From: Arcobacteraceae bacterium
GTDB lineage: Bacteria > Campylobacterota > Campylobacteria > Campylobacterales > Arcobacteraceae
Direction of reading: 5' to 3'
DNA: 64,000 nt
Assembly (NCBI GenBank): GCA_021107755.1
Contig: JAIOSF010000018.1
Location: 1-64,000 of the forward strand
Shown: positions 9,211 through 57,737 of the stretch, piece after piece
How positions within the stretch are numbered: the stretch's first letter is position 1
Layout: each line of letters begins with the position of its first letter
Made by a program: the position numbers and the translations under genes
Notes under the pieces: generated by a model
What the model saw: only the letters and a program-made list of their open reading frames with translations
The model's database searches: none
Told to the model about the DNA's origin: nothing

Positions 9211-10338
9211 ATGAAAAGATGGATATGGGAGCATGATGAGTACCCCAATTTTACTTACGATATAAAAAAACTAACTCCACTAATAGAGAAAGTATCACAA
9301 GAACAAGGTTATCTAATAGCAATGACAAAAGTTATGAATCAAGATAATATTGATTTAACACAATTAGATGCATTGATGAGTGAAGCTATCAGTACAAGTG
9401 CAATTGAGGGTGAAATACTAAATAGAGATAGTGTAAAAGCTTCAATTAAAAGAAAACTTGGATTTGCAGATGTAGAGCTTAGTAAAATTGATAGAGATAC
9501 AGATTATTTAATTGAAGTATTAATTGATGCAAATAGTAACTATGATGACGACTTAACAAATAAGCGATTATTTGGTTGGCACAATGCACTTTTCCCAAAA
9601 GGCTATAGTGGTTTAATAAAAATAAATGTTACATCCTTTAGAGGTGAAGAGACTATGGAAATAGTATCAGGTGGTGCAGGAAAAGAAAAAACATATTATA
9701 TCGCACCACCTAGAGAAAAGTTAGAAGATGAGATGGCTGAATTTTTACGATGGTTTAATAATACAGATGCAAGTTTAATAAAAGCAGCTATATCTCACCT
9801 TTGGTTTGTGATAATACATCCATTTGATGATGGTAACGGCAGAATCACAAGAGCTATAGCAGATTTAGTTTTATCTAAAATAGAAAATTCAAAAATCTCA
9901 AAATTATACTCAATGTCTAGTGCAATTAATGCTGATAGAAAAGGTTATTATAGAGCATTAGAATATACTACAGGATATATCCAAAAAGAGGATGGCTTTT
10001 TGGATATTACATTATGGTGTGAATGGTTTTTATCAACTTTACATACAGCATTAGTAGATACAAAACAGAAGTTAACTTACATCATAGATAAAACAAATTT
10101 TTGGGATAAGCACAAACATAGTAATCTAAATGCAAGACAAACAAAAGTATTAAATAAAATATTAGATATAGGCGTTGATAACTTTCAAGGAGACTTAAGT
10201 AAAAAAAAATATATCACTATAGCCGATACTACATCAGCAACGGCATCTAGAGATATTAAAGAGCTATTAGATTTAGGTTGTATAAAACAAGTAGAGGGAA
10301 CAATAGGGAAAAATACAAGATATAGAGTTTGTGTTTAA
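9211..10338 (+). CDS. Fic-domain protein with N-terminal inhibitory motif and C-terminal winged helix
   Basis: 375 residues. The catalytic motif HPFDDGNGRITR (203-214) is canonical for transfer of AMP from ATP to a hydroxyl side chain. An N-terminal helix carries TSAIEG (62-67), matching the (S/T)xxxE(G/N) inhibitory motif of class II Fic proteins, where Glu66 would block ATP. The extreme N-terminus (WIWEHDEYPNF) is of the DUF4172 type. The C-terminal 80 residues (about 300-375) form a winged helix (ITIADTTSATASRDIKELLDLGCI). That domain plus the palindromes before the gene suggests self-regulation. Target unknown. It is monocistronic and closes the accessory island. Confidence 0.92.
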   Translation: MKRWIWEHDEYPNFTYDIKKLTPLIEKVSQEQGYLIAMTKVMNQDNIDLTQLDALMSEAISTSAIEGEILNRDSVKASIKRKLGFADVELSKIDRDTDYLIEVLIDANSNYDDDLTNKRLFGWHNALFPKGYSGLIKINVTSFRGEETMEIVSGGAGKEKTYYIAPPREKLEDEMAEFLRWFNNTDASLIKAAISHLWFVIIHPFDDGNGRITRAIADLVLSKIENSKISKLYSMSSAINADRKGYYRALEYTTGYIQKEDGFLDITLWCEWFLSTLHTALVDTKQKLTYIIDKTNFWDKHKHSNLNARQTKVLNKILDIGVDNFQGDLSKKKYITIADTTSATASRDIKELLDLGCIKQVEGTIGKNTRYRVCV

Positions 10339-11433: not shown

Positions 11434-11612
11434 TAATCCACTACTGATTTTTTTAAGATTAACAAAAAAATTACGCGTGGCTTGAAGATGCATAGCCAGT
11501 GACTCAATGGATTTTATTACTGAAAATTTATAAAAAGCAATTAACTGCTAAAGCTATTTTATAAATCAAGACTTCGTCGTGTCTTTAATCTTAAAAAATC
11601 AGTAGTGGATTA
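11434..11612 (+). ncRNA. Structured element, copy 1 (long stem with conserved core and pseudoknot)
   Basis: Arms 11434-11462 and 11585-11612 pair over 28 bp with one bulged T. The core holds AAAAAAATTACGCGTG, CTTGAAGAT and CCAGTG, then TTAACTGCTAAAGCTATTTT, all shared with the copy at 26778. A hairpin 11526-11538/11553-11566 has a loop whose ACTGCTA (11544-11550) can pair with TAGCCAGT (11493-11500, one bulge), forming a pseudoknot. Copy 1 also has an extra AAGAC/GTCTT hairpin near the 3' arm. It starts eight bases past the argC stop and ends 21 bases before recN. Which strand is transcribed is unknown; it could also act as DNA. Type is inferred. Confidence 0.6.
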
Positions 11613-11633
11613 TGCTTAGCTTTAGAATACAAA

Positions 11634-13163
11634 CTACTGTAAAAGTTGTTTAGAAAACTCTAAAGCCTCAGTAGTGATATTTTCCCCACTTATCATTCTT
11701 GCAATCTCATTGATTCTTTCCTCTTTGTTTAAAGGTTTTACACAAGAGATATTGTTCTCTTTTTTTACTAAGAAATGTTGGTGAGCTGTAGCACTTAGTT
11801 GTGGTTGGTGTGAGATAGCAAATATCTGATAGTTTTGTGAAAGTTTATTTAAAACTTGTGCAATACTTGCAGACTCTTTTCCACTTAAATTTGCATCTAT
11901 CTCATCTAAAAATAGTATCCCATTTGTATCTATCTCGTAGTGACTTCTGGCAGTTAGAAGAGCAAGACGAAGACGATTGAACTCACCACTACTTATTTTA
12001 TCTAGTTTTGTATTGTTAAGTGTAAATTCTATAGTATCAATACCACTTGTATCTAAACCTTTAGTTTCCATATTTATTTGAAGATTTTCAAGATATAAAA
12101 ACTTTAGGTATTCATTTATTTTTGATTCTAGAAGTGGTAAGTTCTCTTTTCTTTTTGTTGAAACAGTTTTAGCTAAAGTATCTAGTTCAAGAGATAACTT
12201 TTTGATATTTTTTTCTAAAATAGCTTTCTCAAAAGAGATATTTTCATACCCTTCTAGTTCTTTTTCTTTCTCTTTTTTATACTCTAAAGCCTCTTTTACC
12301 CCACCAAACTTTTTATTTAAAGAAGAGAGTTCCTCTATTCGTGTTAGGATTTGTTCTATATCCATATCTTCGCTTGAAGCAATTCTGTCATAAAACTTTT
12401 CAAAGATATTATTTACTTCATTGATAGCTTCATCAAAAAAGGTACTATCTTCATCTATTAGATGTAAAGCACTTGATATTTTGTGAGTATTGTTTAAATA
12501 TGGTTGTATCTCACTTAGAACTTCATCTACTTTATCTTTTTTTGAAAGGTTGTCTTTGATATGTTTAAGCTCTTCATACTCGTCCTCTTTTGGATCAAGT
12601 TTTACAATTTTCTCTATCTCGAATTTTGTATATTCTATTAAATCATCAAGTTCTTTTTCATCATTTTGTATTTTTGTAAACTTCTTTTGTAAAGTATGAT
12701 ATTCCTCATATTTTGTTTGAAATTCATCTAAAATTGTTCTGTAAGAACTGTCATTTAAAGAGGTTAAAAAATCCAAAAATGCAATAATCTTATCACTATC
12801 AAAATCACTTGTATCTTTTAGGTGAAGATGTTTTGAAAAAGTTGTTGTGAAATCTTTGAGATTTTTCTTTGAGATGATTTGATTATTTAAAAAATATCTT
12901 GTCTTTGTAGAGGTGTTTTGTTTGATGATAATATCATCTTCATCTTCTATCCCATATCCCTCATCTTCAATTTTTAAATCTTCAAGTAATACTTCACTTA
13001 ATTCAGCTTTTGAATCAGTTGCACCAAATAAAGCTAAAATTGAACTCATCAAAACTGATTTTCCAGCACCACTAGGTCCTGTAAATACTACTAAACCTTT
13101 TTGAAACTCTAACTCTATTTGTTCAAATGACAAATAGTTTTCTAAGTAAAATCTACTAATCAA
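11634..13163 (-). CDS. recN: DNA repair ATPase RecN
   Basis: SMC-like protein of double-strand-break repair. Walker A FTGPSGAGKS lies near the N-terminus, a long coiled-coil middle (about residues 140-340) follows, and then the ABC signature KISSGEFNRLRLALL and Walker B GILFLDEIDANLSG. About 509 residues, shorter than E. coli RecN (553), mostly in the coiled coil. I place the start at TTG 13163 (MISRFYLENYLSF), which overlaps the nadK stop as TTGA and follows GGGGTG; a TTG twelve bases earlier is also open. It is the last gene of the rnhA-nadK-recN operon. Confidence 0.95.
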   Translation of the reverse strand: MISRFYLENYLSFEQIELEFQKGLVVFTGPSGAGKSVLMSSILALFGATDSKAELSEVLLEDLKIEDEGYGIEDEDDIIIKQNTSTKTRYFLNNQIISKKNLKDFTTTFSKHLHLKDTSDFDSDKIIAFLDFLTSLNDSSYRTILDEFQTKYEEYHTLQKKFTKIQNDEKELDDLIEYTKFEIEKIVKLDPKEDEYEELKHIKDNLSKKDKVDEVLSEIQPYLNNTHKISSALHLIDEDSTFFDEAINEVNNIFEKFYDRIASSEDMDIEQILTRIEELSSLNKKFGGVKEALEYKKEKEKELEGYENISFEKAILEKNIKKLSLELDTLAKTVSTKRKENLPLLESKINEYLKFLYLENLQINMETKGLDTSGIDTIEFTLNNTKLDKISSGEFNRLRLALLTARSHYEIDTNGILFLDEIDANLSGKESASIAQVLNKLSQNYQIFAISHQPQLSATAHQHFLVKKENNISCVKPLNKEERINEIARMISGENITTEALEFSKQLLQ

Positions 13164-14032
13164 TTTGCACCCCAATGTAATTTTTTATTTAATACATCAA
13201 AATAGTTTCTCTCACTTCTGTGTATGAGTTGTGCTTTTGAAGAGGCTATCTCTATAATGATGATATCATTTGGTTTTAACTCATAAGTATCATGACCATC
13301 TACGATTGCTATAGCACTTTGGTTATGTCTATTTTTAAATGATATTTTAAAATCTGCTGGTAAAACCAATGGTCTTTGAGTTAAAGAGTGTGGAGATATA
13401 GGTGTTACTATAAAAGCATCAGTAAGTGGATAAAGAACAGGTCCATTGCAAGAAAGATTATATGCAGTTGATCCAGTTGGTGTTGATATAATTACTCCAT
13501 CTCCTGTGTATTTGTTAAATAATCTTTCATTAACAAATGCCTCTAGTGTTATCATTCCAGTAACAGTTTCTCTTGAGATAACCACATCATTAAAAGCAAC
13601 TACTTCTTCCCCATTGATTGTTGCTTTTATCATCATACGATGATCTATTCTGTATTTGTCTTGTATGAACTTTTCGAGAAATGCCGCTATCTCATTTGGC
13701 ATAATATCAGTTAAAAATCCTAATGTACCAAGATTGATACCCATAACAGCTTTTTGATGATGGAAACCTCTTCTTGCAACAGAGATAAGTGTACCATCTC
13801 CACCCAAAGTCACTAAAAAATCACTTTGTTTACAAAGGGTATTAAATTCTATACCAGTCTTTAAGTTCAGCTCATTTGCACTATTTTCCTCAAGGAGAAC
13901 AGCAATATCAAAACTTTCAAATATTTTCTTAATATCTAAATAGATATCTTTTATATCTGCACAGTTTGGTTTTAAAATAAATCCAGCAACTGATTTGTTT
14001 TTTAAAAGTTTATTATTTCGTATTATATTCAT
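13160..14032 (-). CDS. nadK: NAD kinase
   Basis: 290 residues. Phosphorylates NAD to NADP with ATP or polyphosphate. The signature LVTLGGDGTLISVAR with the GGDG motif is present, as are GVIISTPTGSTAYNLSCNGP and the downstream SLTQRPLVLP. Cytoplasmic. Its ATG overlaps the rnhA stop (ATGA) and its stop overlaps the recN start, so the three genes are tightly coupled. Confidence 0.97.
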   Translation of the reverse strand: MNIIRNNKLLKNKSVAGFILKPNCADIKDIYLDIKKIFESFDIAVLLEENSANELNLKTGIEFNTLCKQSDFLVTLGGDGTLISVARRGFHHQKAVMGINLGTLGFLTDIMPNEIAAFLEKFIQDKYRIDHRMMIKATINGEEVVAFNDVVISRETVTGMITLEAFVNERLFNKYTGDGVIISTPTGSTAYNLSCNGPVLYPLTDAFIVTPISPHSLTQRPLVLPADFKISFKNRHNQSAIAIVDGHDTYELKPNDIIIIEIASSKAQLIHRSERNYFDVLNKKLHWGAN

Positions 14033-14466
14033 CGTAATCTCTCTGCTTCATCTCTTGCAAGTATATCACATCTTTCATTTTGTGGATGACCTGCGTGACC
14101 TTTGACCCAGTTTGCTTTTATAGTATGTTTTTTTGATACATCTAGATACTCTTGCCAAAGTTCTTGGTTTTTTACAGGTTTTTTCCCTGCTGTTTTCCAA
14201 TTATTTCTTACCCAGTTTACTAGCCACTCTTCTATAGCTTGTACCACATATTTACTATCACTATAAATTTGTACAATGCAAGGTTCTTTTAAAGCTTTTA
14301 AACCTTCAATTACCCCTTGAAGTTCCATCTGGTTATTGGTTGTGTTTGGGTTACCACCACTGAGTTCTTTTTCATGACCATTAAATTCTAGTATTGTTCC
14401 CCAACCACCAGGTCCGGGATTTCCTAAACTTGAACCATCACTATAAAGAGTTATATTTTTTGCCAT
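14029..14466 (-). CDS. rnhA: Ribonuclease HI
   Basis: 145 residues. Cuts the RNA strand of RNA:DNA hybrids, in primer removal and R-loop resolution. The metal-binding acidic set is visible: Asp10 (YSDGSSLGNPGPGG), Glu48 (NNQMELQG), Asp70 (IYSDSKYV) and Asp134 (ERCDILARDEA), with His124 in KGHAGHPQNE. It has a complete basic-protrusion region (WVRNNWKTAGKKPVKN). It lies seven bases behind the TPR protein gene and overlaps nadK. Confidence 0.97.
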   Translation of the reverse strand: MAKNITLYSDGSSLGNPGPGGWGTILEFNGHEKELSGGNPNTTNNQMELQGVIEGLKALKEPCIVQIYSDSKYVVQAIEEWLVNWVRNNWKTAGKKPVKNQELWQEYLDVSKKHTIKANWVKGHAGHPQNERCDILARDEAERLR

Positions 14467-14473
14467 ATTTTTC

Positions 14474-15526
14474 CTAAACTAAACTGTTTAAGTTTATTGT
14501 TGGTTTTCCCAATTTTGGTTCAACTACAAGTGAAAACAGATCACTACAGTGTGGACATCTAGCTTCAAAAATAGGGTGTGTTTTTTTACATTTTCTACAT
14601 ATAAATTCAAAGTTTAAATCAAGTTGAGCTTTAACAGGGGAATGTTTTACTGCAATAAGAGCATTGAGTTCAAAGTATTCACTTTGTTTTGCTTCATCAA
14701 GGATATATCCTTTTGCACTATAAATCTCTTTTAAAATATCTGACTGGTTTACTTTTTCCCAATCTATATCTTCAAAATCTAAATACCATAAATAATCAAT
14801 AATTTTCATAGCGTCAAATTCTTCTATATTATTCCAAAAAAGTTCTTTATTAAATTTTATAAGGTAATTTGCTACCACTCTTTCAAGATTATTATCAACA
14901 ATAAAGTTGTTGAAAAGTTGTGTAGATTTTGTTTCAAAACTCAAAATTGGATCATCAATAATTGTTAATATGTTTAGATAGGTTCTCTCTTTAATTGTAT
15001 CTTCATCTAACTCTTCTAAAGCATCTAAAACTTCATTTGCTCTATTATACTCATTAAGATTTTGAAAAATAAGGAGAAGATGTTTTAAAGCAATCTTATT
15101 TCTAGGACTAAATTTTAATATTTTTAAATAGATATCTTTACTTCTTTGTAGTAAACCGCTTTTAAAATAAGCATTCCCAAGTAACTCTAGTAGTTCCTCT
15201 TTTTTTACAGGTTCTTTTACATGCTCTAGTAGAGCTAAATATACTGAGATCGCTTTATTGTGTTTCCCTTCATATATAAAAGTTGAAGCTAAAAGTATAA
15301 TAGAGTCAAAAGGGAGATTGTATGTAGAGTAAAGATGTGTGTAGTCTTCCTCTTTTAAAGTACCTAGCTCAAATCGTTGTAAAAGTTTTCTATACTCTTT
15401 TCGTGATTGTTTCTCTTTATAAATATTAAGTGAATAGGTTAAAAATGATGCTATAAATACAATAGTAAATATAACAATAACACCAATTAAAGGGTCTCTA
15501 TAGTCTAATATCTCTAGTTCTAGCAT
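14474..15526 (-). CDS. Membrane-anchored TPR protein with C-terminal rubredoxin-like zinc site (LapB-like)
   Basis: 350 residues. One N-terminal membrane segment (about 14-31, VIVIFTIVFIASFLTYSL), then cytoplasmic TPR-like helical repeats (about 60-200). The C-terminus has a four-cysteine site CRKC...CPHC near 310-330. This order (anchor, TPRs, rubredoxin-type metal domain) is that of LapB/YciM, which regulates LPS synthesis with FtsH in E. coli. Sequence identity cannot be judged here, so the LapB role is inference. It is joined to the gene at 15526 (one-base overlap) and to rnhA. Confidence 0.7.
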   Translation of the reverse strand: MLELEILDYRDPLIGVIVIFTIVFIASFLTYSLNIYKEKQSRKEYRKLLQRFELGTLKEEDYTHLYSTYNLPFDSIILLASTFIYEGKHNKAISVYLALLEHVKEPVKKEELLELLGNAYFKSGLLQRSKDIYLKILKFSPRNKIALKHLLLIFQNLNEYNRANEVLDALEELDEDTIKERTYLNILTIIDDPILSFETKSTQLFNNFIVDNNLERVVANYLIKFNKELFWNNIEEFDAMKIIDYLWYLDFEDIDWEKVNQSDILKEIYSAKGYILDEAKQSEYFELNALIAVKHSPVKAQLDLNFEFICRKCKKTHPIFEARCPHCSDLFSLVVEPKLGKPTINLNSLV

Positions 15527-16038
15527 TATTTAAACCTATAATTGTTAAGTTTAAAAATAGTATCTTCAGCTATTTGTAGCATTTTAATATTTAGTTGTTT
15601 ATATTGTACATCATCAATATTTAATAGTAATTTATCATAAATTTCACTATAAGGATAGATATTAAAGTAGAGAAATTCTTTATCGTCTTCAGTGATACTT
15701 AACTCCGCAAACCATGTAGAAAGAAGAGCAAAACAAAGCATAGCAGGATTAAAAACATCACCTTTTTCAAATCTTTTTGATAGGTTTTTACTTAAAAATT
15801 CGTAAGTTTTAATAATAATTGCAATTCTTGTAACTCTTGTATTTCTTGTGTAGTAGTCATTGGGTTGTATCACTACATTTATAGCTTTATGGAGTTGTTT
15901 TATTTGTTCATCTATAAAAGTTTTTGTATTTTGGGATATATTAAACATATTGTCATCACTTTTTTCATAAGAGAAGATTAACTCTCTACAAAATAGTAAT
16001 AACGCTTCAGATTTAACTTTTGATGAATTGATAATCAT
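15526..16038 (-). CDS. Conserved-looking hypothetical protein
   Basis: 170 residues, not recognised. Soluble, mostly helical by eye, with no signal peptide, membrane segment or cysteine motif. It overlaps the start of the TPR gene by one base and starts four bases after the stop of the upstream 105-residue gene, so it belongs to the same minus-strand operon (exchanger, small protein, this gene, TPR, rnhA, nadK, recN). Tight packing with housekeeping genes argues that it is a real gene. Confidence 0.7.
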   Translation of the reverse strand: MIINSSKVKSEALLLFCRELIFSYEKSDDNMFNISQNTKTFIDEQIKQLHKAINVVIQPNDYYTRNTRVTRIAIIIKTYEFLSKNLSKRFEKGDVFNPAMLCFALLSTWFAELSITEDDKEFLYFNIYPYSEIYDKLLLNIDDVQYKQLNIKMLQIAEDTIFKLNNYRFK

Positions 16039-16042
16039 GGGT

Positions 16043-16360
16043 TTAGTAAAATAACCTAATTAAAAAAGTAACAAACTCTTTATCAACATTTTTATCACTG
16101 ATAGTTTCATTGTCTTGAGATGATTTTTCAATCAACATAGACATTTGATCAACGAGGTATTTCATATCAGTACTACCCAATTTATTTATATTTGCCACAA
16201 GTTTTTGTTTCACTTCAAAAGAGTCTAAATCCTCTTTTTGTGCAATGCCAAAAGCCATGTTATCCAATGTAGTCATTACATGTGATGGGAGAGTATTGAA
16301 ATTTGGCTCACTACTTTGAGAAGCTGCTAGTTGTTGTTGTAAAAGTTGTTCGTGTAACAT
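16043..16360 (-). CDS. Small hypothetical protein
   Basis: 105 residues, not recognised. It begins with a glutamine-rich stretch (LHEQLLQQQLAASQSS), and the rest is predicted helical and acidic. No signal or membrane segment. AAGGAG lies eight bases before the ATG. It lies 17 bases behind the exchanger gene and four before the next hypothetical gene. Confidence 0.65.
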   Translation of the reverse strand: MLHEQLLQQQLAASQSSEPNFNTLPSHVMTTLDNMAFGIAQKEDLDSFEVKQKLVANINKLGSTDMKYLVDQMSMLIEKSSQDNETISDKNVDKEFVTFLIRLFY

Positions 16361-16377
16361 AATAAGTTCTCCTTAAT

Positions 16378-17295
16378 TTAGAAACTATTTGATATAACAA
16401 GTATTAATACTGTCATCATAACAATACCAGCACTTTTATTATACAATTTATTTGCTGTAATAAATACTAACATTACTGATACTATAAGTGCTGCTAGTAT
16501 ATCAAAAAAGTTCGCTGATAAATCTACATTTAATGGATTTACTATTGAACTAAGTCCTAATACCATTGTAAAGTTTGCCACATTACTTCCTATAATTGCT
16601 CCAATTGCCATATCTGCATTGTTATTTCTTGCTGCTTGGATACTTACAACGAGTTCAGGTAAACTTGTACCAAAAGCAACTAAAAATAATCCAATAATCC
16701 ATTCACTTATACCAAATTCTCTAGCAATATTTCCAGCACTATCAATAGCAAAGTCAGCTCCACCTACAACAAAAATAAAACCAACTGTTAAAAGTGCAAT
16801 TGTTTTGCCCCAAGCAAATTTTTCTTTTGTTAAATCTTCATCAATCTCTTCAACTTGGTTACTTTGGATAAGAAATAATAGATATGCACCCATTAACATA
16901 ACAAATAAAAAACCATCAAGTTGACTTAGCTTTCCATCGATTCCCATAAGAATAAATATTAAAATAGGGAATAGTGACCAAGATGAGTCTTTTGCAAAAA
17001 GGTCTCTTTTAGGCTCTATTTTTTTGGCTATTAAAAATACTGCACCTAACACAAGTGAGATATTAAATATAGTACTTCCTATAACATTTGCAACAGCTAT
17101 ATCACCGCTCCCTTTGATTGAAGCACTCATACTAACTGCCATCTCTGGTAAACTAGTCCCAAGAGCTATCAAAGTAGCCCCAATTACAAATGGGGAAATA
17201 TTAAAATGTAATGCTATTTTTTCACTTTGTTCTATGATAAAATCAGCACCATAAATTAATGCACCCATTGCGACTATAAATATTAGTATATCCAC
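16378..17295 (-). CDS. Sodium/calcium exchanger family membrane protein (YrbG-like)
   Basis: 305 residues with ten hydrophobic segments in two inverted halves. Each half carries the CaCA alpha-repeat signature: IGATLIALGTSLPEMAVSMS (about 40-59) and GLFLVAFGTSLPELVVSIQA (about 203-222), plus GDIAVANVIGSTIFNISLVL and ADMAIGAIIGSNVANFTMVL. The conserved acidic residues in GTSLPE bind the cation. It exchanges Ca2+ or another cation for Na+ or H+ at the inner membrane; specificity is not readable. Its start abuts the ybeY stop. Confidence 0.93.
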   Translation of the reverse strand: MDILIFIVAMGALIYGADFIIEQSEKIALHFNISPFVIGATLIALGTSLPEMAVSMSASIKGSGDIAVANVIGSTIFNISLVLGAVFLIAKKIEPKRDLFAKDSSWSLFPILIFILMGIDGKLSQLDGFLFVMLMGAYLLFLIQSNQVEEIDEDLTKEKFAWGKTIALLTVGFIFVVGGADFAIDSAGNIAREFGISEWIIGLFLVAFGTSLPELVVSIQAARNNNADMAIGAIIGSNVANFTMVLGLSSIVNPLNVDLSANFFDILAALIVSVMLVFITANKLYNKSAGIVMMTVLILVISNSF

Positions 17296-17718
17296 TTAAC
17301 TGTTCCTTATTATTAAACTATCTGGAAGATTAAATTGTTTGATTAACTCTTCCTCTTTTTTTCTGTGTTCCCCATTATCAACTTCATGGTCATACCCAAC
17401 TAAATGAAGCAATCCATGGATAAAAAGTAAAGCTAACTCATCTTCAAAACTGTGATTATACTCTTTTGATTTTTGCTCTACAAAATCAACTGATATTACA
17501 ATTGAACCTAGTGGAGTATTGGGCATATTTTCATATGGAAAACTCAATACATCTGTAGGCTTATCAACCCCTCTTGTGGTTAAATTTATCTCATGAATCT
17601 CTTCATTGTTTGTAAGGATAAATTCTATCTCATCATCTGATATAGTTTTTGCTATATCATTTAAAAAATCAATCCCAACATCATACTTGGAGTTGTTTTC
17701 AAAGACTATATTGAACAC
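17296..17718 (-). CDS. ybeY: rRNA maturation endoribonuclease YbeY
   Basis: 140 residues. The metal site HGLLHLVGYDHE (three histidines) is complete, preceded by RGVDKPTDVLSFPYE and GSIVISVDFV, both family motifs. It acts in 16S rRNA 3' end maturation and ribosome quality control. The start overlaps the end of the upstream 91-residue gene by 13 bases, and the stop abuts the exchanger gene. Confidence 0.95.
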   Translation of the reverse strand: MFNIVFENNSKYDVGIDFLNDIAKTISDDEIEFILTNNEEIHEINLTTRGVDKPTDVLSFPYENMPNTPLGSIVISVDFVEQKSKEYNHSFEDELALLFIHGLLHLVGYDHEVDNGEHRKKEEELIKQFNLPDSLIIRNS

Positions 17719-17981
17719 TTACTAATGCCTAGTTCATGCATTAATGCTTCACAAAATTCGCCAGCTTCTCTTCCCATCCCCTCACACTCAAATTCTATAG
17801 AGAAGTTTCCAGCTGTATCGTTGATAGCTCTTCTTATTACACTAGGAAAAAGTTGCATCTTTTTCTCAATAACTCCAATGGCAGCTTGAATTTTCTTTTT
17901 ACTTTCATCGTTGTTATACTCAACACTCATTCTCATGTATCCCTCTTCCATCTTCACATCTGCACACATATCTCTTGACAT
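17706..17981 (-). CDS. Small hypothetical protein
   Basis: 91 residues, not recognised. It has a good ribosome site (AAAGGAAAA) before ATG 17981. The middle is a helical, lysine-rich stretch (SKKKIQAAIGVIEKKMQLFP), and the C-terminus FCEALMHELGISKCSI ends with a Cys. It overlaps ybeY by 13 bases and lies 15 bases after the globin-like gene, so it is probably co-transcribed with both. Confidence 0.6.
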   Translation of the reverse strand: MSRDMCADVKMEEGYMRMSVEYNNDESKKKIQAAIGVIEKKMQLFPSVIRRAINDTAGNFSIEFECEGMGREAGEFCEALMHELGISKCSI

Positions 17982-17996
17982 AGTTTTTCCTTTTAT

Positions 17997-18506
17997 CTAT
18001 TTTTTATCATGACCAAATGGACAACCCATCTTTGTATTTGCTTTATCTTCTAAAGTTTCTCTATCATTTTCATAATTTACTATATGTTTTGAAAAAGTCT
18101 CTAACCAGTTCCAATATGATTGGATATGTTGATGTTCTACTTTATCTTCTATTGGTCTTAAAACCTCTTCCCAACAACCTAGCCATTCGATTCTTGCTTT
18201 GTTTGGGATTGAGAACATCTCATGTGTTTTGATTTGATCAAAGTCACCACCATATTTTGAAATATATCTCTCATCTCCTCCACATATCATTATAAAATAA
18301 GAACCATTTCTTTTTTTTATCAGTGCCAACTCTTCTGCATCATCAGGAAAATAATGTGCTATATCACTCTCCACTACTATCTCATAAAAAGCGTTTACCA
18401 TCTTTTGAAATCCATCTGGTGTTAATTGCTCTAAAAATTCTTTATTTGGATTTATAACTTCTGGGCGTTCCCCCATTATTGCATTTGTATAATAATAATC
18501 TACCAT
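17997..18506 (-). CDS. Truncated haemoglobin-like protein
   Basis: 169 residues. The segment CGGDERYISKYGGDFDQIKTHEMFSIPNKARIEWLGCW (about 75-112) matches the E-to-F region of truncated globins, with His95 a candidate proximal haem ligand and Trp108 and Trp112 typical. Longer than the 120-130 residues of most truncated globins, with N- and C-terminal extensions; the tail MGCPFGHDK may bind something else. A likely role is oxygen or nitric oxide handling. It heads the operon leading into ybeY. The fold assignment is by eye. Confidence 0.7.
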   Translation of the reverse strand: MVDYYYTNAIMGERPEVINPNKEFLEQLTPDGFQKMVNAFYEIVVESDIAHYFPDDAEELALIKKRNGSYFIMICGGDERYISKYGGDFDQIKTHEMFSIPNKARIEWLGCWEEVLRPIEDKVEHQHIQSYWNWLETFSKHIVNYENDRETLEDKANTKMGCPFGHDKK

Positions 18507-18610
18507 TTTTTCCCTCTATAAAATTTTGTTCAAATGAAAGTTATTTTATCTAAAGTGTACTAAAAAAGCTCTAACATATTTCACATCCATTTATTTTTTC
18601 TATATTATGT

Positions 18611-18616
18611 TATAAT
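18611..18616 (+). promoter_or_regulatory. -10 box for the OmpA-like gene
   Basis: TATAAT in TTATGTTATAATAG lies 49 bases before the ATG at 18665, with AAAGGAAG as ribosome site at 18653-18660. It gives a short 5' leader of about 40 bases. Confidence 0.55.
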
Positions 18617-18664
18617 AGTAGTACAATTTCGTTAAGCGATTTAATTTGAAATAAAGGAAGAAAC

Positions 18665-19378
18665 ATGAAAAAAATAATATTAAGTTTAAGTGTAGCGACA
18701 CTTTTATTAACAACTAATTTACAAGCAAAAGAGTGTCCAACTACTTGTGATAGAATACTATTTGGAACTGTTGGTGTACTACAAGGTATTTTTATTGGTG
18801 GTCCAGTTGGAGCATTTTGGGGATTAGGTACAGCTATTTTTGCTGATAACTATGAAGGAGATACTTGTAAAGAGAAGCCAACTGAAACTACTGAAGTTCA
18901 GTCGTTAGTTGAAAACAATGCAAAAGATGAGCAAAATAGTGCAAAGATGACAGAGCAAGTTGAAGAAAAAAGTATAGTAGAGGAAAAATCTGTAAGTGTT
19001 GATGATAGATTGGATAGCATTTCTGAAAATAGTACAAGTAAGATGAAAGTTAAAGGTTATGTATTTATCCCTAGTATTGTTAATTTTGAATATGATTCAT
19101 ATAAAGTGCCAACTATTCCTCAAAAGTTAGCAGAGTTAAAAAATGATGGCATTACATCTATAACAATTGACGGTCATACAGATTCTGTAGGGAGTGATGA
19201 GTACAACTTTGCCTTAGGATTAAAAAGAGCAAATGCAGTAAAAAATATTTTGCTTTCTCAAGGTATTGAAAGTGGAAAATTGTCAACAGTTTCATATGGT
19301 GAATCAAATCCTATCTCAGATAAAGATTTTGAAAATAGACGAGTGGATTTGAATATCAAATATTCTGTTTCGAAATAA
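18665..19378 (+). CDS. OmpA-family peptidoglycan-associated envelope protein
   Basis: 237 residues. A Sec signal peptide (MKKIILSLSVATLLLTTNLQA, cut before KEC) is followed by a two-Cys segment and a glycine-rich hydrophobic segment (about 32-60) with two Gly-Gly-Pro/Gly motifs, like glycine-zipper domains. An acidic low-complexity linker (about 70-115) follows. The C-terminal OmpA domain (about 130-235) contains TIDGHTDSVGSDEYNFALGL and ends NRRVDLNI, the residues that bind diaminopimelate. It has its own promoter, and a tiny ORF with a strong ribosome site follows. Confidence 0.9.
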   Translation: MKKIILSLSVATLLLTTNLQAKECPTTCDRILFGTVGVLQGIFIGGPVGAFWGLGTAIFADNYEGDTCKEKPTETTEVQSLVENNAKDEQNSAKMTEQVEEKSIVEEKSVSVDDRLDSISENSTSKMKVKGYVFIPSIVNFEYDSYKVPTIPQKLAELKNDGITSITIDGHTDSVGSDEYNFALGLKRANAVKNILLSQGIESGKLSTVSYGESNPISDKDFENRRVDLNIKYSVSK

Positions 19379-19402
19379 AAAAATAGAAGAAAGGAGGGCT
19401 AT

Positions 19403-19489
19403 ATGTACTATAGTTCTCTTGTAATAGTATTTAAATTATTTTTTGTAGGCTATTACATTATACTAAAAAAGCTTTTAGTCATTTTGTAA
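19403..19489 (+). CDS. Small hydrophobic peptide (28 residues) with a near-perfect ribosome site
   Basis: ATG 19403 is preceded by AAAGGAGGGCTAT, close to the ideal Shine-Dalgarno. The frame runs 28 codons to TAA 19487. The product is almost entirely hydrophobic and aromatic (Tyr, Phe, Leu, Ile, Val) with three lysines, two of them adjacent near the C-terminus: one membrane helix. It starts 24 bases behind the OmpA-like gene and its last codons overlap the convergent RhuM-type gene. It could be a small membrane protein, or a type I toxin-like peptide; the latter is speculation. Confidence 0.45.
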   Translation: MYYSSLVIVFKLFFVGYYIILKKLLVIL

Positions 19490-20338
19490 TTGTTGCAAAA
19501 ATAGTTTCATATCAGTTTGTATTTTACTAAAAGCAAAAACTTTATTGCCTAAATCTTTTAAACTAGCCCCAATATGATACAGTTCTTTTTTATCAAGAAC
19601 TAAAAATCTATCGTGAAAATTTTTATTTGTTTTTATTTCTAAATTGTTGTACTGCTTATTGTATTTTTCAACATCCAGTTTTAATTTTTTTGTGATCTCT
19701 TTGGTATAAATAGAGACTTTAATATTGTGATTTTCTGAAAGTAGAGTTAATACTGTTTCATCTATATAGTTATCAACTAAAACTATTTCATTTTTTGCAC
19801 TTTTGATAAGCTCTAATACAAAAACATAAGCATCAAATATCTCTCCATTATAGAGAATACCTTGTTTAACTTTTATACTTTTATCTTCTAATTTTGTTGA
19901 AATATTTTTAAACTGATTTTTTAATATTTGTACATCATTTTCCAAAGATACAAATCTCTCATTTGTAATTTTATCACTATTTATTACATATCCATTCTCT
20001 ACATAACTTTTCAATACTTTTGTAGCCCATTGTCTAAACCTTGTAGCTTTTAGAGAGTTTACTCGATAACCTACAGATATAATTACATCAAGATTGTAAT
20101 GTTCTACATCTCTTTTAACTTTTCTTTTACCCTCTTGTTGAACTATCAAGAAAAACTTGACAGTTGAATCTTTACTAAGTTCTTTATCTTGAAATATTTT
20201 ATTTATATGTAAACTTATATTTTGTTTTGTAACATCAAATAATTCAGCTAATTGTTTTTGATTAAGCCAAATAGTCTCATCACTTACTGATATATCTAAT
20301 TCTAATTCTCCATCATTATAAAATACTATATTTGACAT
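19475..20338 (-). CDS. RhuM-family protein with C-terminal PLD-like region
   Basis: 287 residues. The N-terminal half (1-130) matches RhuM-type proteins: IWLNQKQLAELFDVTKQNISLHI is a helix-turn-helix, followed by RDVEHYNLDVIISVGYRVNSLKATRFRQWA. A coiled linker (about 135-170) leads to a second domain (175-285) with EIVLVDNYIDETVLTLL and FHDRFLVLDKKELYHIGASL, a phospholipase-D-like pattern (HDR where HxK is usual). Such proteins occur as single genes, often near mobile or defence loci; the function is not established. Good ribosome site AAAGGA. Confidence 0.8.
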   Translation of the reverse strand: MSNIVFYNDGELELDISVSDETIWLNQKQLAELFDVTKQNISLHINKIFQDKELSKDSTVKFFLIVQQEGKRKVKRDVEHYNLDVIISVGYRVNSLKATRFRQWATKVLKSYVENGYVINSDKITNERFVSLENDVQILKNQFKNISTKLEDKSIKVKQGILYNGEIFDAYVFVLELIKSAKNEIVLVDNYIDETVLTLLSENHNIKVSIYTKEITKKLKLDVEKYNKQYNNLEIKTNKNFHDRFLVLDKKELYHIGASLKDLGNKVFAFSKIQTDMKLFLQQLQND

Positions 20339-20364
20339 GGTCTAGTCCTTTATATTTTTTTACA

Positions 20365-21714
20365 CTAAAAAAGCTCCAACATCTTTACAACTTCATCTAC
20401 TACAAAACATTTCAAATCGGTTTTTATAGTTGGTTTCTCAGAGATGATTGCTTTTTTTATACCTTGAGAACTTGCTTCTTTAAGACGAGTCTCCATACTA
20501 TATACATCTTTTATCTCACCTGTTAAACTAACCTCTCCTATAAACACAGATTCTTTTGAGATAGGACGGTTTCTAAAACTACTAATAATTGCAGCAATCA
20601 CAGCCAAGTCACACGAACTCTCTTTTACTTTTATACCACCACTAATATTTATAAATACATCGTAAGAGTTTAGAGGTAGATCAAGTTTTTTTTCTAAAAG
20701 TGCTAGAAGCATATTGAGACGATTTGTGTCAAACCCTGTGGCACTTCGTTTAGGATTTGGATAGGTTGATTCTGTAACTAATGCTTGAACTTCTAGTATT
20801 AAAGCACGACTTCCCTCAACTGCAACTGTAAGGCAACTACCACTTTGATTTTTTCTTGAATCAAAAAATCTTCTGTTGATATCTTTTGCACTTTCAAGTC
20901 CATTTTGTGTCATCTCAAAAATACCAATTTCACTAGTAGATCCAAAACGATTTTTAAATCCTCTTAACATCCGTATCTCTTTGCTACTTTCCCCCTCAAA
21001 ATATAAAACAGTATCAACCATATGTTCTAGCACTCGTGGTCCTGCAATACTTCCATCTTTTGTAATATGTCCAATAATAAACATCGCAATACTAGCTTCT
21101 TTAGCTTTTCGCATAAGCTCAAATGTTATCTCTCTTACCTGTGAAACACTTCCTGGGGCTGAAGTAAGTTTATCACTATAGATTGTTTGGATTGAATCTA
21201 TAACTGCTATTTCATAATCTTGTCGGATAAGTTCATCTTGTATAGCCTCTAGGGATATTTCAGAGAGTAAAAATAGATTATCTTCATTTGCATCAAGTCT
21301 CGTTGCACGCATTTTAATTTGTCCACCAGATTCTTCCCCACTCACATATAAAACTTTTTTACCAGTTTTAGCTAAATTTCCTGCTATTTTTAGTAGAAGT
21401 GTAGATTTTCCAACACCGGGACTTCCCCCTATAAGGGTAAGACTTCCTGGGACTACTCCTCCTCCTAAAACTAAATCAAACTCTTCATTATTAGTAGAAA
21501 ATCTAGTGACATTGTCTTGTTCTATTTGAGTAATAGGTATAGCTTTTGATGGTTCATTTGAAAGTTTTGAGATCTGTTTTACAACTTCCATCTGTGAGGC
21601 ACTGAGTTCTATAAAACTATCCCAACCACCACAACTAGGACATTTTCCTAACCATTTTGCACTTTGTTCTCCACAGTGTTGACATTCAAAAGTAGAAGAT
21701 TTTTTCTTTGCCAT
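20365..21714 (-). CDS. radA: DNA repair protein RadA
   Basis: 449 residues. The N-terminal zinc finger CQHCGEQSAKWLGKCPSCG is followed by a RecA-like ATPase (Walker A GGSPGVGKSTLLL), the RadA-specific KNRFGS motif (LRGFKNRFGSTSEIG) and a C-terminal Lon-type fold (ISGGIKVKESSCDLAVIAAI). It drives branch migration of recombination intermediates. Monocistronic on the minus strand, 26 bases before the RhuM-type gene. Confidence 0.97.
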   Translation of the reverse strand: MAKKKSSTFECQHCGEQSAKWLGKCPSCGGWDSFIELSASQMEVVKQISKLSNEPSKAIPITQIEQDNVTRFSTNNEEFDLVLGGGVVPGSLTLIGGSPGVGKSTLLLKIAGNLAKTGKKVLYVSGEESGGQIKMRATRLDANEDNLFLLSEISLEAIQDELIRQDYEIAVIDSIQTIYSDKLTSAPGSVSQVREITFELMRKAKEASIAMFIIGHITKDGSIAGPRVLEHMVDTVLYFEGESSKEIRMLRGFKNRFGSTSEIGIFEMTQNGLESAKDINRRFFDSRKNQSGSCLTVAVEGSRALILEVQALVTESTYPNPKRSATGFDTNRLNMLLALLEKKLDLPLNSYDVFINISGGIKVKESSCDLAVIAAIISSFRNRPISKESVFIGEVSLTGEIKDVYSMETRLKEASSQGIKKAIISEKPTIKTDLKCFVVDEVVKMLELF

Positions 21715-21789
21715 ATTTTAATATCCTTAATATCATATAGTGCAATTATAGTTAAAAGATATTAATAATTAAAAAAATATGTCATTTTG

Positions 21790-22818
21790 TTAATCTTTTT
21801 TTTCTTCTGGGGAAGTAAGATTTAATTTAGACCATTTAAATTCCAAATAAGGGGTTATGATATTATGAGATTTTTTATAAGATAAAAAGTCCTCTTTTTG
21901 GGTAATTTGATGAATGATATTTTCCATATTCTTTAGGTTTTCCACCTCTAGTTCCTCTTCTAGTTCTGTATGGTATTTAAGTAGAGTGTCAAAAGCAAAA
22001 TTATATTCAAAACCAAGTTTTCGTTTTTTATTTAAAACTTTTTTTATAAAAATCCAGTTTGAAAATATCACTTCCCAAGCTCTTTTTTGTTCACTGGTAA
22101 TACATAAAGAGAAAATAATTTGTTTCCATTTATAAAGTCCAAAATAAGCTTGATGATTACTCCATAACTCTTCAATCCACCAATCTTCAAATTTTGGTAG
22201 CCCCTTAAATTCTGGAAGTTCTTCCTCTTTTATAATATCTTTTATATTTGATATCAATACAGAAAGATGTAAAACCAATACAGGGATATGTGTATTTAAA
22301 ACACCAAGTTTACTAATATCCTCTTTTGATACATTTTTTAAAAGTTTTGCAAAATCCTCTTTAATCTCCTCAAGCTCATCATCAAGCTCATCGTGTATTC
22401 GTAAATCTAACTTAATAGTAGTTTCTGCAATTGAAAAAAGATCATCATCTTCAAGATTTATATCAGCAGGAAGTTCATCTACAATCATCATAGCTTCAAG
22501 TTTTTGGTCATTATCTCTTGAAATATCTCGTTTGAGTCTTATTTTTTGATATTTAAAATAGTTTTTCCGTTTTATAGCCTCTTTTAGTCGCTCCTCTTTC
22601 TCTATCTCTTGAATATCATGTTTCATGAGTTCATTAAGAATCATTTGGTTTTTTTCTAAAGCTTCTTGTGATTTTTCAATTCCATTTTCTGTTGAAGCTA
22701 CTCCCATAATTGAGAGTTTTGATTTACCAGAATTGTGATCATCAAGTTGCTGTTGGAGGATTTTAATTCTTTTTTGATTTTGTTTTATTAAATCTTGGAC
22801 TGCTATTATTGCATTCAT
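21790..22818 (-). CDS. Unknown helical protein, tandem paralogue B
   Basis: 342 residues. It aligns end to end with the product of the adjacent gene 22820-23884. Shared blocks are KLEAMMIVDELP (about 108-119) and KFEDWWIEELWSNHQAYFGL with YKW behind it (about 211-233), plus a common ending before a charged tail. The N-terminal 100 residues are predicted coiled coil, rich in Lys and Glu; the tryptophan-rich middle looks globular. No membrane segment, signal or catalytic motif is recognised. It lies one base behind its paralogue, so they are co-transcribed and may form a hetero-oligomer. Confidence 0.75.
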   Translation of the reverse strand: MNAIIAVQDLIKQNQKRIKILQQQLDDHNSGKSKLSIMGVASTENGIEKSQEALEKNQMILNELMKHDIQEIEKEERLKEAIKRKNYFKYQKIRLKRDISRDNDQKLEAMMIVDELPADINLEDDDLFSIAETTIKLDLRIHDELDDELEEIKEDFAKLLKNVSKEDISKLGVLNTHIPVLVLHLSVLISNIKDIIKEEELPEFKGLPKFEDWWIEELWSNHQAYFGLYKWKQIIFSLCITSEQKRAWEVIFSNWIFIKKVLNKKRKLGFEYNFAFDTLLKYHTELEEELEVENLKNMENIIHQITQKEDFLSYKKSHNIITPYLEFKWSKLNLTSPEEKKD

Positions 22819-22819
22819 A

Positions 22820-23884
22820 TTAAGATTTTTTACCTTTTACATCTTTATAATCAATTTTTTCTCTTTTAAATTTTGTATATTTTGTTATAAGTTCATGTTC
22901 ATTCGGAGATGCCATTTTTGTAAAATCTTCTTTATTAGTTAAATAGTTTATCAACTTTTCCATAGACTCTAAACTTGTTGTTGCTAACTCCTCTTCTAAA
23001 CCACTATAGTTTCGTATAAGGGTATCAAAAGCATAGTTATATTCAAATGCTAATGCACCTTTAGATGTGATTTGTTTTTTTATATTTACCCAGTTCGCAA
23101 AAATAACTTCCCATGCTCTTTGTTGATCAGATGATTGACATAAGGAAGAGATGATAGTTTTCCATTTATATAATCCAAAATAAGCCTGATGATTTATCCA
23201 TAACTCTTTAATCCACCAATCCTCAAATTTAGGAAAACCTGAAAATAACTCTTTGTTTTTCTCATTAGATTTATCCTCACCATTATGGTCTTCTTCTAAA
23301 TTGGCTTTAATATTTTCAACAAGAGTATGAAAGTGTAAAACTACTACAGGGATTTGAAAATTAAGAAGAGCAAGTTCATCTAGCTGTTCCCCTTTTAAAT
23401 CTTTTATAAGTTCTTCAAATTCTCCCCGTATTTCAGCAAAAGTTTCATGGATTTGCTCATGAAGAGATAGATGCATTTTTAGAGATTGTTCAGCTACTCT
23501 AAATAGATCGGCATCATCAAAACCTAAATCATCAGGCAGCTCATCTATAATAAGCATAGCTTCTAGTTTTTCATCATTTGATCTTAATTTATCTCTTTTT
23601 AATCGTACTTTTTGGTAGTGAAGATAGTTTTTCCTTTCGATCGCTTCTTTTATTTTTTCTTGTTTTTCTAGCTCTTTAATATCTTTTTTTAAAAGCTCAG
23701 CTAACATTGCTCTATTTTTTTCAAGACGATTAGTTCTGTCTTCAATATTAGTTTCAGTTGATGCTTTTACTAAAGGAGATAACCTCGTAGTTCCAGATTC
23801 ATGGTCCGATAGTTGTTTTTTAGCAAGTTTTAGATGAACTTCATCATCTTTAATCATCTCTTCTAAGGCAATTAGTGCTTTCAT
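22820..23884 (-). CDS. Unknown helical protein, tandem paralogue A
   Basis: 354 residues. Paralogue of the next gene, with KLEAMLIIDELP, KFEDWWIKELWINHQAYFGL and AFEYNYAFDTLIRNYSGLEEEL. It differs mainly by a short acidic insertion (EEDHNGEDKSNEKNKE, about 208-223). The N-terminal third is coiled coil and the protein appears cytoplasmic. Not recognised. Upstream is a 128-base AT-rich gap; trmA on the other side is transcribed in the same direction. Confidence 0.75.
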   Translation of the reverse strand: MKALIALEEMIKDDEVHLKLAKKQLSDHESGTTRLSPLVKASTETNIEDRTNRLEKNRAMLAELLKKDIKELEKQEKIKEAIERKNYLHYQKVRLKRDKLRSNDEKLEAMLIIDELPDDLGFDDADLFRVAEQSLKMHLSLHEQIHETFAEIRGEFEELIKDLKGEQLDELALLNFQIPVVVLHFHTLVENIKANLEEDHNGEDKSNEKNKELFSGFPKFEDWWIKELWINHQAYFGLYKWKTIISSLCQSSDQQRAWEVIFANWVNIKKQITSKGALAFEYNYAFDTLIRNYSGLEEELATTSLESMEKLINYLTNKEDFTKMASPNEHELITKYTKFKREKIDYKDVKGKKS

Positions 23885-24012
23885 ATCATAACCTTGTTGT
23901 ATAAGTTGTAATCAAACTAATAAATAATTTTTACATCATTAATATAATATGGTTTAATTATAGTTAAAATTGATTTAATAATATCTTAATAAAAACTTAA
24001 TAATCAATAGTC

Positions 24013-25137
24013 TTAAAAAAGTCTCTTTAAAATAGCCCCTGATTCTATATGATTTGAATAAGCAAACTGGTCAAAGAGTGCAAATTTTTCTATAGTATGC
24101 GTTTTTGTTAAAGCTTCTAAATCTCTATGAAGAGTTTGTGGATTACAAGAGATATAAATAATTTGTTCGAAATTTTGTGCTAGTTTTGTTGTGGTGACAT
24201 CTAGTCCAGCTCTTGGAGGATCTAAAAACAAAGTACTGAATTTATAACTATCCAAATCAATATTTTTCAATCTTGTAAATTCACGCACTTTATTTTTTGC
24301 TTCAACAAATTCTTCACTTGACATTCTAATAAATTCTATATTATTAATATTATTAAGTTCGCAGTTTGTTTTTGCAGATTTTATAGAAGTTTTACTAATC
24401 TCAGTTGCTAACACTTTGTTGAATTTTTTTGATAATGGAATAGTGAAATTTCCACCACCACAATACAACTCACACAAATCGTCATACGCATCAATATTAT
24501 CTAAAACCCACGAAATCATTTGTGTATTGACATTTTGATTTGGTTGAGTAAAACCACCCTCGCTATAACGGAAATAAAATTTTTCATTGCTTATTGTAAG
24601 TGTCTCATCTATAAAATCATCACTTAAAATAACTTTTTGTTTTCTACTTCTCCCTATAATTTTGATATTAAGTTTCTCTTGTAGTTTTTTAGCTTCATTT
24701 GACCATAACTCATCTAATTTTTTGTGATAGATAAGAGTTACTAAAATATTATTTGTAGTTGAGCTTAAAAATTCACAAGTAAATAATTTATGATTGAGTA
24801 TCTCATTAGTTTGAATTTGCTCAAGAAGTTTTGGCATTATGTTTGCTATAGGAACACTAACCATACTACAGGAATCTATTGGTAAGGGTTTTTTATCAAT
24901 GTCATTCATAGCGTAAGAGAATTCTACAGTATCATCTGTTTCATATGTTCTCCAAACTCTAAATTCAGCTCTATTCCTAAAAGAACCATCATCACTTTTA
25001 ATAATATCTATATCATTGTTCCAAAAATTTTTAAATCGTTCTTTTTCAATATCTATTTTATTGCTTAATTGTTCTTCATAAGTTTGACCACCTAAAGTAC
25101 AACTACCACAAATTCCAAAATAATTACAATCCATCAT
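24013..25137 (-). CDS. trmA: tRNA (uracil-5-)-methyltransferase
   Basis: 374 residues from ATG 25137, which has AAGG six bases upstream; the frame is open 14 codons further. Makes ribothymidine at tRNA position 54. SAM motif LCELYCGGGNFTIPL, then FLDPPRAGLD, and the nucleophile Cys in YISCNPQTLHRDLEAL. The N-terminus MDCNYFGICGSC has three cysteines typical of the Campylobacterota type. The Suv3-like helicase diverges from its promoter region. Confidence 0.93.
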   Translation of the reverse strand: MMDCNYFGICGSCTLGGQTYEEQLSNKIDIEKERFKNFWNNDIDIIKSDDGSFRNRAEFRVWRTYETDDTVEFSYAMNDIDKKPLPIDSCSMVSVPIANIMPKLLEQIQTNEILNHKLFTCEFLSSTTNNILVTLIYHKKLDELWSNEAKKLQEKLNIKIIGRSRKQKVILSDDFIDETLTISNEKFYFRYSEGGFTQPNQNVNTQMISWVLDNIDAYDDLCELYCGGGNFTIPLSKKFNKVLATEISKTSIKSAKTNCELNNINNIEFIRMSSEEFVEAKNKVREFTRLKNIDLDSYKFSTLFLDPPRAGLDVTTTKLAQNFEQIIYISCNPQTLHRDLEALTKTHTIEKFALFDQFAYSNHIESGAILKRLF

Positions 25138-25201
25138 TAACCTTATATACTTAATTAGTGTGGTATTATATCCAATCAAATTTAAGATTTAAGGTAGATA
25201 T

Positions 25202-26773
25202 TTGAAGCAGTCATTTCAAGAACAACTTAACCAACTTTTAAACTGTGATTTAAAATCACTTTATCCTCTAGCTAGAGAATTAAATAGAAAATTATATTTT
25301 TTTGTAGGACCTACAAATAGTGGGAAAACATATAGTGCAATGAAAGAGTTAATAGATGCAGATAGTGGAACATATCTAGCACCTTTACGACTTTTAGCAC
25401 TTGAAAATTACGAATTTTTAAAAGAGCAAAATATAGCAGCTTCTTTAATGACCGGTGAAGAGGAGATATTTGATGAAGATGCTGGACATATCTGTTCCAC
25501 TATTGAGATGCTTAATTTTAATCTAGAAGTTGATGTATCTGTTATAGATGAAGTACAAATGCTTGATGATGAGGATAGGGGTTGGGCATGGGTAAATGCA
25601 ATACTTGGCTCACCTGCTAGAAAAGTGATCATGACAGGAAGTGTTAATGCACTAGAGATTGTAAAAAAAATAGCAATTTATTTGGGAGAAGAGCTAGAGG
25701 TTGTAAAATTTAAAAGGATAAATCCACTCAAAGTGGATACTCATCAAACTGTTTTAAGAGATATAAAAAAAGCAACAGCACTTATAGCTTTTAGTAGAAA
25801 AGATGTTTTAGCACTTAAAGCAAAACTAAGTAAGTTTCATACAGTTTCTGTATTATATGGAAATTTATCTCCTGAGGTGAGAAGAGAAGAAGCAAAAAGA
25901 TTTAGAGAAGGTCAAAGTGATATTTTAATAGCAACAGATGCTATTGCTATGGGTTTAAATCTTCCTATTAAACATCTTTTGTTTACGACAGATACAAAAT
26001 TTGATGGGGTAGAAAAGCGAAAACTTACCCCAAATGAGGTGATACAAATAGCTGGTCGAGCTGGAAGATACGGACACCATGAAGTTGGACATATAGGGGC
26101 TACTAGTAAATCTGTGTTAAATCATATATCAGAGATGTTTACAAGTCCTATGAGTACTATAAAACCACCGGTAAAAGTAAAAGCAACTCAATTACAAGTA
26201 GAAGAGTTATCTGTACATCTTGGAACTAAAAATTTAACAAAAATATTGCAATATTTTTCTAAACATATGAAATATGATGGACCTTTTGTAGCAACAAATA
26301 TCAAAACAATGATTGAGTTAGCTACTATCCTTGATCCAAAAGGTGAATTAACTCTCGATCAAAAATACCATTTAAGTTCAGCACCTATAAATACAAGATC
26401 CCCTTTAATAAAAAATGGATACTTAAAATATGTAAATGCAGTATTGAATCATAAAGTTATCAAATATAAATCAAGTTCAAAAACAACAGGAATTGCTAAA
26501 ACTCAGTTGGAACTATTGCAAGCAGAAGATGAGGTAAAAAAAATCTCATTATATCTTTGGTTGTCCTATAAGTTTCCAGAGATTTTTCCAGATAAAACAA
26601 AAGCTCAAATTGCAAGAGTAGAGATAAATAACTTTTGTGAAAATTCACTAAAGTCAAATAAATCACTTACCCCTATACAAAGAGATACAAGAAATAATCC
26701 ACGAAAAAGATTTGAAAAAAAAGATGATAAACATACGAATTATAGAAAAAGAAGAGATTCAAGACGACATTGA
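25202..26773 (+). CDS. Suv3-like DExH RNA helicase
   Basis: 523 residues from TTG 25202, with AAGG about eight bases upstream and no nearby ATG. Motif I is FFVGPTNSGKTYSAMKEL. Motif II DEVQ lies in VSVIDEVQMLDDEDRGWAW and motif III is MTGS. Motifs V-VI are IATDAIAMGLNLP and IQIAGRAGRYG. The pattern APLRLLALENYEFL is characteristic of Suv3, the mitochondrial and bacterial RNA helicase that partners with RNA degradation enzymes. The C-terminal tail is very basic (KRFEKKDDK...YRKRRDSRRH). It is directly followed by the structured repeat at 26778. Confidence 0.88.
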   Translation: MKQSFQEQLNQLLNCDLKSLYPLARELNRKLYFFVGPTNSGKTYSAMKELIDADSGTYLAPLRLLALENYEFLKEQNIAASLMTGEEEIFDEDAGHICSTIEMLNFNLEVDVSVIDEVQMLDDEDRGWAWVNAILGSPARKVIMTGSVNALEIVKKIAIYLGEELEVVKFKRINPLKVDTHQTVLRDIKKATALIAFSRKDVLALKAKLSKFHTVSVLYGNLSPEVRREEAKRFREGQSDILIATDAIAMGLNLPIKHLLFTTDTKFDGVEKRKLTPNEVIQIAGRAGRYGHHEVGHIGATSKSVLNHISEMFTSPMSTIKPPVKVKATQLQVEELSVHLGTKNLTKILQYFSKHMKYDGPFVATNIKTMIELATILDPKGELTLDQKYHLSSAPINTRSPLIKNGYLKYVNAVLNHKVIKYKSSSKTTGIAKTQLELLQAEDEVKKISLYLWLSYKFPEIFPDKTKAQIARVEINNFCENSLKSNKSLTPIQRDTRNNPRKRFEKKDDKHTNYRKRRDSRRH

Positions 26774-26777
26774 AAGT

Positions 26778-26947
26778 AGCATAACTCAGTATTAAGTTTT
26801 AATTAAGATTAATAAAAAAATTACGCGTGACTTGAAGATAAATAACCAGTGTATTAAGGCACTAGATTTTCATAGAACAATAAAAAGAGATTAACTGTTA
26901 AAGCTATTTTCTTTAATCTTAATTAAAACTTAATACTGAGTTATGCT
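26778..26947 (+). ncRNA. Structured element, copy 2 (35-bp perfect stem with conserved core and pseudoknot)
   Basis: Arms 26778-26812 and 26913-26947 are perfect inverted repeats of 35 bp enclosing 100 bases. The core shares AAAAAAATTACGCGTG, CTTGAAGAT, AACCAGTG and TTAACTGTTAAAGCTATTTT with copy 1 at 11434. TAACCAGT (26843-26850, one bulge) can pair with ACTGTTA (26894-26900) in the loop of hairpin 26882-26887/26904-26910. It starts four bases past the helicase stop. There is no T-run behind the stem, so it is not a normal terminator. The 26774-27018 gap is otherwise only the glmU promoter region. Confidence 0.65.
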
Positions 26948-57700: not shown

Positions 57701-57720
57701 GCAATTTGCTTACCCTTTTT
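57690..57720. terminator. Bidirectional terminator
   Basis: A perfect 15-bp inverted repeat, AAAAAGGGTAAGCAA with TTGCTTACCCTTTTT, overlaps the glycosyltransferase stop and serves the convergent cytochrome gene. Confidence 0.85.
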
Positions 57721-57737
57721 AGATTGTCTAAAACTGA

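Follow-up and report, generated by a model that had tools for sequence, protein, structure and literature searches.

A probable MITE-like palindromic element with matched but divergent arms in an Arcobacteraceae bacterium

The window, a stretch of 64,000 nucleotides from an Arcobacteraceae genome, contains two copies of a palindromic repeat of about 170 bp, which is probably a MITE-like, non-autonomous DNA transposable element whose arms are matched by arm-to-arm copying. The preliminary description had started from these two copies and proposed a covariance-model search of the genome. This search, combined with BLAST over the whole assembly, recovered 13 full copies and one coreless remnant. 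The full copies are 169-194 bp long, typically about 170 bp, lack coding capacity and have a GC content of 22-29% (about 26%). Shortly beyond the window, the same contig carries a third copy (C12:76291-76457).

Structure and distribution of the element

The two window copies, E13 and E01, comprise the following features:

11434 to 11612, + strand: full element copy E13 (covariance model match, E 8e-21)
11434 to 11463, + strand: left arm of E13, with TTAAGATTAA at its inner end and extra bases in its outer part
11561 to 11582 (limits approximate), + strand: 22-nt insert ATAAATCAAGACTTCGTCGTGT of E13, otherwise present only in E12 on contig C28
11584 to 11612, + strand: right arm of E13
26778 to 26947, + strand: full element copy E01 (covariance model match, E 5e-27)
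26778 to 26812, + strand: left arm of E01, 35 nt, perfect
26813 to 26912, + strand: core of E01, with a conserved 5' block AAAAAAATTACGCGTGACTTGAAGAT, a variable middle and a conserved 3' block TTAACTGTTAAAGCTATTTTCT
26913 to 26947, + strand: right arm of E01

Alignment confirmed the coordinates and the shared blocks of these copies, which had been described as homologous with a common core. E01 is closed by a perfect 35-bp stem, as originally described, while the stem of E13, first reported as 28 bp, measures about 30 bp; a single base bulges out of it, and its left arm has an insertion in the outer part. The two copies are the top-ranked long inverted repeats of the window, and their RNA folding z-scores are -7.4 (E13) and -9.3 (E01), with none of 200 shuffled sequences equally stable. 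A short, near-perfect, terminator-like palindrome is also present in the window at 57683-57727, where the ORF at 56525-57700 ends.

Across the family, the arms form long terminal inverted repeats of about 36 bp. From the outside inwards, a weakly conserved tip (TAGC.CAAT) is followed by about 10 variable positions and a conserved inner arm, TTCAGTTTTAnTTAAGATTAA, giving an overall end pattern of TAGC..CAATCC..TTCAGTTTTA. Inside the inner arm, two conserved core blocks, one 5' and one 3', enclose a variable stretch of about 40 nt, and the matching arm follows the 3' block. Sequence conservation is found in the inner ~20 bp of the arm and the adjoining core blocks, and many copies carry a terminal TA. 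The ends of the core are conserved in sequence. Base pairing within the core was considered but is not supported, its consensus fold being 0 kcal/mol.

The 22-nt insert near the 3' end is common to E12 (locus L012) and E13, whose cores are not closest relatives; it may represent an ancestral form or an exchange between copies. It holds a small hairpin, AAGAC..GTCTT. The remnant (G000:C8:138927-138970; about 7928-7971 of locus L060) retains both outer arms and has lost the core and one inner arm, apparently by deletion between short A-runs.

Among the genomes searched, the element is restricted to this one. No relative was detected in 103 genomes of the family or in 396 genomes drawn from the phylum, two sets that overlap in part, and the two large model searches were run with stricter filters that can miss weak matches. 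The first reading of the two copies had recognised no family, and comparison with Rfam likewise gave no match. BLAST against phages and plasmids returned short chance matches or none, and no relative of the element. Five hits from a pattern scan of GTDB genomes proved unrelated on individual inspection, and viral scans yielded one unrelated sequence, in two contigs, and nothing else. The element is absent from the three phylum loci that matched at E 0.02-0.05; one of these (L079, from another genome of the order) is a different structure, a mid-locus intergenic long hairpin of GTCATTAGTCATTA-like repeats. The element constitutes a repeat family without a match in the collections searched.

Target duplication, empty sites and genomic context

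A 9-bp direct repeat flanks the copies at one fixed register, where left and right flanks agree at 75 of 117 positions, compared with an expectation of 36.3 derived from mismatched flank pairs; shifted 9-base registers reach match sums of only 40-49. The scores per copy are 4, 9, 7, 6, 7, 9, 2, 8, 3, 5, 4, 7 and 4. Two copies thus have a complete duplication (9/9), four score 7-8/9 and one scores 6/9, and the other six show no clear duplication. Among mismatched flank pairs, a score of 7 occurred only once in 156.

The preliminary description had also suggested comparison with empty sites. Three congeners were compared, all of them incomplete (61-85%), and both window sites are found without the element. 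G002 keeps the helicase and glmU neighbours, and the space between them is shorter by about 178 bp; in G003 the argC-recN spacing is 77 bp as opposed to 214 bp here. Alignments confirm that the element is absent at both sites, with flanks too divergent for a base-exact join. Together, the 9-bp target duplication and the empty congener sites make it very likely that this is a mobile DNA element. We also considered the outer arms as a pre-existing palindromic target; this reading was rejected because the 9-bp duplication falls outside the arms and the genome has no empty palindromes of that type. A Fic-like protein gene lies upstream of argC (window 9211-10335, + strand), its match to protein adenylyltransferase Fic falling below the curated cut-off.

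The copies are intergenic and their orientations are mixed. Three lie between convergent genes. Another three are placed within co-directional gene pairs, downstream of a gene and in the same sense as it, and the remainder are mostly upstream of divergent genes, with one antisense. The proposed start just past a stop codon holds for E13 and E01, which begin 2-7 nt past one in the same orientation (the distance varying with the end definition), but it does not extend to the family, since a same-strand gene precedes only 6 of the 13 copies. These six (L001, L004, L007, L008, L009 and L013) all start 2-13 nt past its stop codon. Such adjacency could reflect a target preference, or insertions that leave downstream promoters intact may have been the ones to survive. 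A terminator reading was rejected, given the missing T-run and the non-uniform orientation.

Origin of the matched arms

The two-copy observation that pairing persists despite substitutions and length changes in the arms extends to all 13 copies. In the 36-pair terminal stem, 96.3% of cells are paired, with the indel-bearing copies, E13 above all, imperfectly registered in the affected columns. Changes on both sides occur at 17 pairs, with 57 double-change cells compared to 17.2 after shuffling. The covariation score is 0.371, against 0.134 for shuffled stems and at most 0.06 when the arms are slid. Among the nine copies free of indels, divergence between copies is 32% in the outer 15 pairs and 7% in the inner 20, compared with 8% and 1%, respectively, within a copy. 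Arm length also varies among copies, yet both arms match within a copy, as in E09 and E11. E02 and E06 both have perfect 9-bp duplications and already differ strongly from each other in both arms, which indicates that the matched divergence predates those insertions.

We propose that transposition of the element duplicates 9 bp of target, through a transposase that was most likely supplied in trans and may have been lost from this genome. This enzyme plausibly recognises the inner ~20 bp together with the neighbouring core blocks, while the outer ~15 bp drift in sequence and retain their complementarity. In the favoured mechanism, a hairpin extruded at the replication fork would allow one arm to template the other (quasipalindrome correction), so that a single mutation would be transferred to the opposite arm. 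Template switching has been documented to perfect quasipalindromes in E. coli, and correction of this kind is an established mechanism in bacteria (PMC7202029). Neither a transposase nor an autonomous parent with matching ends was found in searches of the genome, for which two transposase models were used, DDE_Tnp_1 (no match) and Transposase_mut (none above cut-off), and the inner end has no further genomic copy besides the elements and the remnant. A point against the MITE account is that the outer arm is most variable where a DNA transposase normally needs conserved tips.

Paired changes in the stem comprise 83 transitions and 109 transversions, and changes in the unpaired core 397 and 501, counts that are pairwise and non-independent. 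The two ratios are close to each other, a result that fits arm-to-arm copying better than RNA compensation in single steps. Copying predicts an ordinary mutation spectrum, whereas stepwise compensation predicts an excess of transitions via G-U pairs, which is not seen. On this basis, we lean somewhat towards copying as the mechanism. In the indel-free copies just 7 of 315 cells hold a G-U pair, and one-sided changes give G-U rather than A-C by 7 to 3 (p=0.17), a lean that speaks against arm copying by slightly favouring selection on + strand RNA or ssDNA.

The same mobile element might instead have the complementarity of its ends kept by selection on a folded single strand, RNA or an ssDNA hairpin, a possibility to which we give appreciable but clearly lesser weight. 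The fold would be recognised by the transposition machinery, or would protect or process a transcript. Every copy pairs very well, even the four that lack a recognisable flanking duplication, which is consistent with such selection, as are the one-sided lean towards G-U and the arm differences between E02 and E06, which place matched arms in transposing lineages. Selection is disfavoured by the scarcity of G-U pairs and by transversion-type double changes as frequent as in unpaired sequence. In addition, a fixed 9-bp duplication is, to our knowledge, not expected from known single-strand (Y1) transposases. More speculatively, and with little confidence, we consider a transposable element that needs a folded long hairpin whatever its outer sequence, makes a 9-bp duplication and prefers sites directly behind stop codons in sense, acting as a portable 3'-end structure.

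The preliminary description had taken the compensatory changes as a sign of selection on structure. Covariation of the stem is strongly confirmed, but a structured RNA family is unsupported, since the core has no conserved fold and orientation to genes is not uniform. Of its two readings, the alternative of gene conversion between arms now looks likelier than the main one. A new family of cis-regulatory or small RNAs, dispersed over the genome as a 3'-end hairpin or terminator-like structure, is improbable. The strong folding and the stop-codon adjacency of all six copies behind a same-strand gene would fit it; the placement of other copies between divergent genes or antisense, the lack of a conserved core fold and of a T-run, the absence from both window sites in congeners and the lack of an Rfam match do not. 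A reverse-transcriptase-linked element, such as a retron or group II intron relic, is very unlikely: the complementary ends recall the a1/a2 ends of retrons in outline only, a search with positive controls found no reverse transcriptase in the genome, Rfam gave no match, and a 9-bp duplication is present.

These results carry a caution: paralogous copies can show strong covariation in a stem, a pattern usually taken as proof of a structured RNA, when they are mobile palindromes whose arms evolve in concert. The 13 natural palindromes allow arm copying and selection on structure to be compared directly.

Relation to known repeat families

Bacterial MITEs are shorter than 200 bp, A+T-rich, intergenic and non-coding, with terminal inverted repeats, target duplication and the ability to form stem-loops (PMC2229807, PMC10969869). 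The element shares all of these features, being a short, non-coding, multicopy and A+T-rich intergenic sequence with inverted repeats and a target duplication that 6-7 of 13 copies show clearly; many copies also carry the terminal TA that is frequent among MITEs. It differs in that its outer terminal repeat varies between copies while matching within each, its conserved sequence is subterminal, its duplication is 9 bp, and a parent IS is not among the matches found. For most bacterial MITE families, the link to an autonomous transposon is unknown (PMC2229807).

Compared by description only, the element resembles several other families. Correia/NEMIS elements have a TA duplication, as opposed to 9 bp here, and belong to another host group. 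They share its length class and terminal inverted repeats, and in Neisseria they give rise to hairpin transcripts (PMC2229807). ERIC/RU and YPAL of enterobacteria and the Rickettsia palindromic elements are dispersed, mostly intergenic palindromic repeats (PMC2229807), similar to the element in dispersal and palindromy and again from other host groups. YPAL duplications range from 3 to 26 bp (PMC2229807), whereas that of the element is fixed at 9 bp.
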